A stretch of 64,000 nucleotides of DNA from Sphingobium sp. TCM1 (lineage in GTDB: Bacteria > Pseudomonadota > Alphaproteobacteria > Sphingomonadales > Sphingomonadaceae): the NCBI RefSeq assembly GCF_001650725.1, contig NZ_LXVX01000039.1:125131-189130 (forward strand). Direction: 5' to 3'. Both the position numbers and the translations under genes were made by a program. Of this stretch, positions 41,298-42,780 are shown in pieces. Within the stretch, counting starts at the first letter, position 1. Each line of letters opens with the position of its first letter. Under the pieces are notes generated by a model. It did no database searches. It saw only the letters and a list, made by a program, of their open reading frames with translations, and was not told the DNA's origin.

Positions 41298-42590
41298 GTG
41301 ACATCCCGCGAACTGACCGGCTTTCTTCCCCTGAGCGAGACGCAACCCGGCGAGGACGACCTGCCGCGCCGCCTGTCCGACATGGCCTGGCGCATCGGCT
41401 TCGGCGCGATCGGCTGGCCCTGGCTGCTGGCCAGCCTGTCGGGCGGGCGCAAGGCGGACAAGCGCGCGCTGCTGGACGAGCTGGGCCTCGCCCATGACGC
41501 CCTGCCGCATCTGGGCAGCTGGAAGGCGGACGTCGGATTCCTGCGCCACATCGTGCGCGAAATCACCCGGCTCCGCCCTGCTCATGTCGTGGAACTGGGT
41601 GCCGGCGCCTCCTCCCTGGTCGCGGCGCGCGCCCTGCAACTGCATGGCGGCGGACGGCTGCACAGTTTCGACCAGCATGGCGGTTTCGTCGATGCCACCC
41701 GCCAGTGGCTGGCCGACAACGGCCTGGGCGTGGACATTCGCCACGCGCCGCTGACCCGCGAAAGCGCGGACTGGCCGGGCCGCTGGTATGCGATCGACAA
41801 CCTGCCAGACCAGATCGACCTGCTGATCATCGACGGCCCGCCCTGGAGCGTGCATCCGCTGGTGCGCGGCGCCGCCGACAGCCTGTTCGCGCGCCTTTCC
41901 CCCGATGGCGTGGTGCTGCTGGACGATGCCGCCCGCCCTGGCGAGCGGCTGGTGGCCCGACGCTGGCGGCAGCGCTGGCCGCATATCGACTTCCGCCTGA
42001 TGAAGGACGGCACCAAGGGCACGTTGGTCGGCCGCCGTCGCGACGTCACCTTGCCGGTCGCGAACGACAACGACGCCGCCCGCACCTGGCGCCACCTTGG
42101 CCGCGCCGCCGGCATCGCAGCGCTGATCGCGACGGGCTGGATCGCACGCGGAGCACTGGGCGAATTTCCCCAGCCGGCGCAGGCCAGCAGCTTCCTCGAC
42201 GAGGCGGCAGCTTCCCGCCGGGCCGCCCTGCTGCGCCAGGCGATGGCGTCCCAAGTGGAGAGCGCGACACTGAACCCTCAGGAGATCGAGCGATCGACCG
42301 GCATTATCCTGCCCGCCCTTCCGGTCGGCTGGCGCGTCGCCGATGTCCAGCTCTTCCCCACCGCCGACAGCCCGGCGATCGCCATGTCGCTGGAAAGCCC
42401 GCGCGGCGAGCATCTCTCCTTCTTCGCCGACCGTGCGGAAACCCCTGCGGACGCCAAGCCGATGCTGGCGGAGCGCGCCGGGGACGTCATCGCCTATTGG
42501 GAGGCGGGCGACATGGCCTATGCCCTCACCGGACAGGCCACCCCTCGCCGCATCATGGAACTGGCGGCAACCATAGCGCCTGCGAGCTGA
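41298..42590 (+). CDS. Class I methyltransferase fused to an anti-sigma-factor-like C-terminal region
   Basis: 430 residues in two unlike parts. Residues 1 to about 250 form a SAM-dependent methyltransferase: motif I VVELGAGASSLVAARAL, then LLIIDGPPW and VVLLDDAARPGERLV. A single membrane helix follows (about 271-290). The remaining 140 residues resemble the extracytoplasmic part of anti-sigma factors (LPVGWRVADVQLFPTADSP, SFFADRAETP, VIAYWEAGDMAYALTG). No zinc anti-sigma domain and no ECF sigma gene are seen nearby. The methyl acceptor is unknown. The join is in one open frame with no stop or obvious frameshift. Confidence 0.75.
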   Translation: MTSRELTGFLPLSETQPGEDDLPRRLSDMAWRIGFGAIGWPWLLASLSGGRKADKRALLDELGLAHDALPHLGSWKADVGFLRHIVREITRLRPAHVVELGAGASSLVAARALQLHGGGRLHSFDQHGGFVDATRQWLADNGLGVDIRHAPLTRESADWPGRWYAIDNLPDQIDLLIIDGPPWSVHPLVRGAADSLFARLSPDGVVLLDDAARPGERLVARRWRQRWPHIDFRLMKDGTKGTLVGRRRDVTLPVANDNDAARTWRHLGRAAGIAALIATGWIARGALGEFPQPAQASSFLDEAAASRRAALLRQAMASQVESATLNPQEIERSTGIILPALPVGWRVADVQLFPTADSPAIAMSLESPRGEHLSFFADRAETPADAKPMLAERAGDVIAYWEAGDMAYALTGQATPRRIMELAATIAPAS

Positions 42591-42671
42591 TCGGCCTTCA
42601 AGGCGGGCGGAGCGGACTGCCAACGGTTCGCTTGTCCTGTTTTGCGCGCTGCCGGCAGTTCCAAGTCGATC

Positions 42672-42780
42672 GCCTGTCGCAATTTCCGAGCCGTCAGCTG
42701 TTCCAGCTGACTTCAAAATGCCGGTCATTTGCCTGTCGCATTTTGCTGGTCGTCAGCTGTTCCAGCTGACTTCAAAATGC
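42672..42780. repeat. Tandem 59-bp duplication of a compound palindrome
   Basis: A 30-bp unit starting CGTCAGCTG and ending CAAAATGC occurs at 42692-42721 and again, identical, at 42751-42780. A GCCTGTCGCA box also repeats 20 bp before each (42672-42681, 42731-42740). Each copy holds GTCAGCTG-ttc-CAGCTGAC, a perfect 8-bp hairpin. In the second copy GCATTTTG (42738-42745) and CAAAATGC (42773-42780) make an outer stem. It lies 14 bp before the ABC exporter start. A REP-type element or a double operator are both possible. Confidence 0.8.

Follow-up and report, generated by a model that had tools for sequence, protein, structure and literature searches.

A methyltransferase fused to a putative membrane helix and an anti-sigma-type periplasmic domain in Sphingobium, and related transferase fusions in Sphingomonadaceae

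The closest described relatives of the protein analyzed here are proteins that we take to be RsiW-like membrane ECF anti-sigma factors of alphaproteobacteria (COG5662-type), whose membrane helix and periplasmic domain are homologous to those of the fusion. Unlike these factors, the fusion carries an enzyme instead of the sigma-binding N-terminal half, and no ECF gene adjoins it. The nine RsgI anti-sigma factors of Clostridium thermocellum are reported to sense different substrates. The extracellular modules of RsgI proteins vary. RsgI proteins and the fusion family are alike in having an anti-sigma architecture with one variable half. In RsgI it is the outer half that differs between members, and the sigma-binding half is kept; the fusion family instead keeps the outer half and has an enzyme as its inner one. 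ECF sigma factors fused to anti-sigma parts are likewise known, as IutY and ECF48/52/53 (PMC8999054). As in the fusion, an anti-sigma membrane part is joined in these proteins to another cytoplasmic domain, but this partner is a sigma factor in IutY and ECF48/52/53 and a transferase in the fusion family. Our searches of the open-access literature found no description of a methyltransferase, or of any other transferase, joined to the periplasmic domain of an anti-sigma factor.

The fusion gene lies in a 64,000-nucleotide stretch of Sphingobium sp. TCM1 DNA, which was analyzed as a whole and is called the window below. An uninterrupted frame (41298..42590, + strand) with a GTG start encodes a 430-aa protein in the order methyltransferase, membrane helix, and anti-sigma-type periplasmic domain, and this full length is kept in many genomes. 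An AlphaFold model of the full-length protein from 47 aligned sequences (mean pLDDT 79.2) contains a methyltransferase domain, a helix at residues 258-278, a poorly defined stretch at residues 278-296, and then helices and a beta domain. A sequence-only reading of this DNA had claimed that a methyltransferase, a membrane helix, and a C-terminal part share one frame, that the enzyme stands in place of the cytoplasmic half of an ECF anti-sigma factor, and that the C-terminal half reads like the extracytoplasmic portion of such a factor. Each claim was borne out, by the intact frame in many other genomes, by the assignment of the N-half to Methyltransf_24 from Pfam and fold, and by homology of the C-terminal half to anti-sigma factors, respectively. 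Neither of the outcomes that it had named as refuting occurred: the C-terminal half is strongly similar to anti-sigma factors, and many species share the fusion. A sequencing error that joined two genes is ruled out, and chance is not the explanation, because intact fusions of the same kind occur in many independent genomes.

The N-terminal half matched Pfam Methyltransf_24 at residues 98-210 (E 2.5e-10; 41.6 bits vs. a cut-off of 26.3), and the class I SAM methyltransferase domain, with a COMT-type fold, spans residues 63-251 (41484..42050, +). The top structures in VIA-align comparisons of model residues 63-253 were COMT-type O-methyltransferases, including 8c9v (Z 19.3, rmsd 2.4, 171 aligned), rat COMT 2zth (Z 18.9), and MycF 4xvz (Z 17.3). 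Searching the PDB with the full-length protein, as sequence or profile, produced weak methyltransferase matches or chance matches only, and neither PHROGs nor NCBIfam was informative for the fusion protein. Residues E99, G101, G103, D125, D179, D209, and D210 were invariant in 47/47 rows of a conservation alignment of 35 fused and 12 stand-alone methyltransferases. D179 in the invariant DGPPW motif (41832..41834, +) and D209-D210 in the DDxxRPGER motif (41922..41927, +) are candidate catalytic metal ligands; by general analogy with COMT and MycF, rather than by a tool alignment, they would correspond to the metal-binding acidic residues after strands 4 and 5. The methyltransferase half looks active, because these core residues are invariant and acidic residues occupy the presumed metal-binding positions. 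The COMT and MycF-type O-methyltransferases (Methyltransf_24) share the fold and the Pfam match of this half; the fusion differs from them in its C-terminal membrane module and in a conserved N-terminal hydrophobic helix (residues 22-46; 41361..41435, +), which was assigned from the model and contains W40 and P41 in 47/47 rows. This W-P helix may contact the membrane.

The C-terminal part (residues 258-430), searched against 199 genomes of the family, returned 29 matches in 26 genomes, and 17 of the 29 were proteins with anti-sigma-type N-halves (E 6e-16 to 4e-30). By eye, these N-halves follow roughly the motif AYxDGxLDxxRRxxVExxL. Three of the proteins were scanned for Pfam zf-HC2; L030 scored above the cut-off (25.7 vs. 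22.2 bits), and L016 and L022 scored below it. The fusion protein itself gave no zf-HC2 match indicative of a sigma-binding N-half at E up to 10, in a search whose filters remove most matches above 0.1. The C-terminal part alone matched no Pfam or NCBIfam family, and a PDB sequence search with the periplasmic anti-sigma-type domain (residues 297-428; 42186..42581, +), called the C-domain below, returned nothing credible. The C-domain contains a conserved AYWE-G core.

When the C-domain was modelled alone (pLDDT 84.6), the top Foldseek and VIA matches were RseB and MucB, whose C-terminal domain is resembled by residues 325-430. RseB and MucB filled the first six VIA rows (Z 8.2-8.4), mostly with their C-terminal residues about 211-316, and the best match was 6in9_B (rmsd 3.0 over 92 residues), whose Z of 8.4 is only just above the 7 to 8 that the tool states as a typical best. 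Identity to RseB/MucB was 8-11%, apo MucB 6in8 reached only Z 4.8, and the first ten Foldseek rows had E values of 5e-4 to 3e-3 with TM-scores below 0.5. The Pfam profile of the MucB/RseB family matched none of 28 C-domains at E up to 10, with filters that remove most matches above 0.1, and DUF4245 gave weak matches in 8 of these 28 (best E 2.5e-4). The C-domain model thus weakly resembles the RseB/MucB C-terminal domain, a likeness that fits the place of that family in anti-sigma signaling. In RseB/MucB, the C-terminal domain docks onto the anti-sigma factor at its first periplasmic helix, and the N-terminal domain is held to bind lipid (PMC7400510). The fusion has only a C-terminal-like domain, with a helix before it, and this domain may therefore serve for docking and not as a lipid pocket. 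The lipid-binding N-terminal domain of RseB/MucB has no counterpart in the fusion, whose C-domain, unlike the one in RseB/MucB, shares a single chain with the membrane helix.

A GTDB genome scan yielded 210 relatives, of which the best 80 were kept, and the following counts therefore give no frequency. These best 80 comprised 49 intact fusions (frames of 427-439 aa), 28 methyltransferases alone (L105-L132; 244-249 aa; 22 titled Sphingomonas), and 3 broken or cut-off copies (L084, L086, and L102). The closest relative among them, from Sphingobium lactosutens, was 92% identical. The fused relatives were mostly from Sphingobium, and also from Croceicoccus, Croceibacterium, Aurantiacibacter, Rhizorhabdus, and others. 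One candidate fusion (L105) matched to query residue 324 by tblastn; its frame stops at 249 and the downstream sequence is unlike the C-domain, and it was classed as stand-alone. Because the methyltransferase also exists without the C-domain, at least some functions of the enzyme must be independent of that domain. A quick methyltransferase tree (57 rows, thinned) was compatible with one or two origins of the fusion (support 75). Another stand-alone copy (L115), in a record titled Bacillus sp. 2B10, lies in a Sphingomonas-like locus with the gene order of Sphingomonas records, and contamination or a wrong name is likely.

The C-domain also occurs on other partners. A profile survey of 397 Sphingomonadaceae genomes gave 63 C-domain matches in 53 genomes, counts that may be low, as at most nine candidates were scored per genome. 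Thirty-three of the matches had an anti-sigma N-half and 28 had an enzyme, which was Methyltransf_24 in 21 (one cut by a contig end), an FkbM methyltransferase in 4, and a weakly supported glycerophosphotransferase-like domain in 3; the remaining two were a protein without a recognized N-half (G156) and a short remnant (G812). Four of the 24 genomes with an enzyme fusion in this survey (G174, G380, G784, and G797) also have the anti-sigma form. Two fusions are present in the genome of the window, in which a search found no anti-sigma factor carrying the same C-domain. The second fusion (L003 478-2013, on contig C12 beside a gene resembling hemB) joins an FkbM methyltransferase (Pfam 5.9e-12; TIGR01444 7.3e-19) to the same helix and C-domain (37% identity) in a 511-aa protein. 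FkbM fusions were also assigned in G363, G394, and G736, by eye and by likeness to L003. The glycerophosphotransferase-like N-half was found in G117, G784, and G811; Pfam Glyphos_transf matched L009 with E 0.0041, below the cut-off, and L203 and L204 resemble L009, while L203 trimmed at its N-terminus gave no match and NCBIfam gave none credible for L009 and L204. A sulfotransferase N-half (Sulfotransfer_1, 4.2e-22) was found on the C-domain in G321, which came from a survey of the order and is absent from the matches of the 397-genome survey. Outside the family there were 57 C-domain matches, of which 52 had a recognized anti-sigma N-half, a few weakly (E up to 0.003); of the other five, L172 and L273 had no recognized N-half and L263, L268, and L275 were near contig ends. 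No enzyme was recognized on any of the 57. In the G156 protein (L024/L050), the helix and C-domain are preceded only by a proline-rich stretch, and its flanks contain no clear ECF gene.

On a quick C-domain tree (97 of 118 distinct rows, Sphingobium copies thinned, root not inferred), the partners required five changes, which is the minimum for six labels. The FkbM fusions grouped together (98), as did the glycerophosphotransferase-like fusions (99), and the sulfotransferase fusion fell inside one branch of Methyltransf_24 fusions (98 for the branch; 80-94 nearer in). This nesting within the Methyltransf_24 fusions suggests that the sulfotransferase fusion arose by a partner swap. The anti-sigma form is the likely source of the C-domain in the fusions, because the fusions sit among anti-sigma rows on the tree. 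Judged from sequence, one anti-sigma sensor-type module has been captured by four unrelated transferases.

An ECF sigma gene, defined as a gene like that at L043:2666-3199 (Sigma70_r2 4.6e-18), adjoins the anti-sigma form in 32 of the 33 loci of the family survey (L026, L207, and L239 by tblastn); the exception is L224. Such a gene was found in 0/11 fusion neighborhoods, the window included, and 65 further fusion neighborhoods (13 + 52, with overlapping species) contained no ECF match by blastp at E 1e-4. The absence of a cognate ECF sigma gene near the fusion, as originally noted, held up: no ECF sigma gene of the anti-sigma-linked kind was found at positions 30000-54000 of the window, and the six related sigma genes detected in the genome at E up to 0.001 are all on other contigs. 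In a set of 32 anti-sigma loci compared for their neighbors (L043-L052, L206-L239), 11 have an adjoining gene for a GMC oxidoreductase, 9 for a 2OG-Fe(II)/AhpC protein, and 6 for a glycosyltransferase-like protein, which hints at envelope or redox regulons. An origin of the fusions by joining of neighbors within ECF loci received no support from the flanks of C-domain loci without an enzyme; blastp and phmmer detected none of the four enzyme types within 3-7 kb on either side of 33 such loci.

Enzymes of the FkbM methyltransferase, sulfotransferase, and glycerophosphotransferase-like kinds commonly have glycans or lipids as substrates. We propose, with about even confidence, that the window protein is a membrane-tethered, SAM-dependent O-methyltransferase that acts on an envelope precursor and is tuned by a periplasmic cue, with its tether and periplasmic part derived from an ECF anti-sigma factor. 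The catalytic half would lie in the cytoplasm at the inner face of the inner membrane and would methylate an intermediate of an envelope glycan or glycolipid. Binding of a periplasmic partner or envelope component by the periplasmic domain would place, activate, or release the enzyme, so that the signal otherwise passed by an anti-sigma factor to a sigma factor would go to the enzyme instead. The sequence-only reading had suggested a sensor that turns a periplasmic signal into methylation of a cytoplasmic target. Its fusion, anti-sigma homology, enzyme replacement, and absent ECF gene all stood; its sensing role and cytoplasmic signaling target are hypothetical. By analogy with the other fusion partners, which are of kinds often modifying glycans or lipids, the substrate is more likely to be an envelope precursor than a signaling target in the cytoplasm.

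A possible alternative, though on balance an unlikely one, is that the helix and C-domain are a passive anchor that keeps the enzyme on the inner membrane, close to a membrane-bound substrate, with no signaling. The stand-alone methyltransferases, which lack the helix and C-domain, are consistent with this explanation, as are partner enzymes of kinds that may act on membrane-linked glycans. The putative transmembrane helix (residues 263-283; 42084..42146, +; AlphaFold helix 258-278) is of marginal hydrophobicity; the fusion helices are predicted to be less hydrophobic than those of most stand-alone anti-sigma factors of the Sphingomonadaceae survey, and about as hydrophobic as those of several anti-sigma factors of other alphaproteobacterial families (e.g., L154, L155, L160, and L161). 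This weakness of the helix counts against the tethered-enzyme proposal. Among Sphingobium-type rows, dN/dS (ratio of means) was 0.15 for the methyltransferase, 0.41 for the variable first linker (residues 250-262; 42045..42083, +), the most relaxed of the five parts; the helix and the C-domain each gave 0.23, and the second linker (residues 284-296) gave 0.16. Both halves are under purifying selection, and the value for the C-domain implies that this part is maintained. A folded periplasmic domain of ~130 aa, so constrained and with a conserved AYWE-G core, would be superfluous for a bare anchor, and the repeated choice of the same anti-sigma-type domain also argues against an anchor alone.

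Release of the enzyme by proteolysis, in which a cut at site 1 would be followed by a cut of the helix within the membrane, appears rather improbable. The putative site 1 is a P-A-x-A motif (residues 293-296; 42174..42185, +) that resembles a signal-peptidase site and is nearly invariant in the Methyltransf_24 fusions (first A in 35/37 rows, second A in 37/37), within the second linker, with its dN/dS of 0.16. Such release is a fair idea because signal peptidase performs the site-1 cleavage of the anti-sigma factors RsiV and RsiP (PMC8844934). Against it, a strict AxA was not enriched in anti-sigma relatives (15/51 vs. 13.0 expected) and was found in 0/3 glycerophosphotransferase-like rows, and it is for these reasons no general feature. 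A looser small-x-small pattern was present in 42/51 anti-sigma rows, a count made without a shuffled control. A signal-peptidase site was therefore rejected, in the strict AxA form, as a feature of the whole family and kept as a lead for the Methyltransf_24 fusions only, where the motif could also be a helix cap. That the C-domain is a leftover of gene fusion with little function, for which the existence of broken copies might speak, is very improbable given the purifying selection on the helix and C-domain, their conservation across genera, and their several different partners. Among the broken copies, L084 and L086 end early, in records of Sphingobium sp. 15-1 and S. chungbukense, and the short remnant in G812 is L221.

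Returning to the proposal of a tethered and tuned enzyme, we tentatively extend it, at somewhat less than even confidence, to one-protein transmembrane switches of sphingomonads, in which an anti-sigma periplasmic sensor would directly control cytoplasmic transferases (methyl-, sulfo-, and others) with a role in decorating the cell surface. One cue would then govern gene expression where a species has the ECF pair and enzyme activity where it carries the fusion. Anti-sigma factors are usually viewed as transcription switches, and repeated capture of one of their periplasmic domains by unrelated transferases, if true, would mark such sensors as portable modules able to act on enzymes directly. 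The fusion suggests that an envelope signal may govern an enzyme directly rather than induce genes, and the fused enzyme would provide a chemical read-out and a handle on what such sensors detect. Envelope sensing in sphingomonads is of special interest because sphingolipids replace lipopolysaccharide at their surface (PMC11165598).

The gene context gives no substrate, because most genera do not share fusion neighbors; none was common to most genera, and the neighborhoods offered no lead to function. In Sphingobium, an ABC transporter gene is usually downstream of the fusion (cluster C2, 31 loci including the window). By eye, two Croceibacterium fusion loci contain a metal-type ABC cluster, and the stand-alone methyltransferase follows rplM/rpsI-like or purA-like genes in many loci. 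One FkbM fusion (L218) is near Bac_transf (sugar-transferase), glycosyltransferase, PIG-L, and sulfotransferase genes, in line with the proposed action on envelope precursors. Between the fusion gene and the ABC transporter gene of the window (42665-42780), a 57-nt unit occurs twice, with the copies 86% alike at a spacing of 59; a genome-wide search that allowed up to 3 mismatches gave no further copy of a 28-nt part of this unit, and the unit contains a palindrome (GTCAGCTG...CAGCTGAC). Elsewhere in this genome, a stand-alone methyltransferase paralogue that is 52% identical (L002, 1501-2265, G000:C10) lies near a gene that, by eye, is tyrosine recombinase-like.
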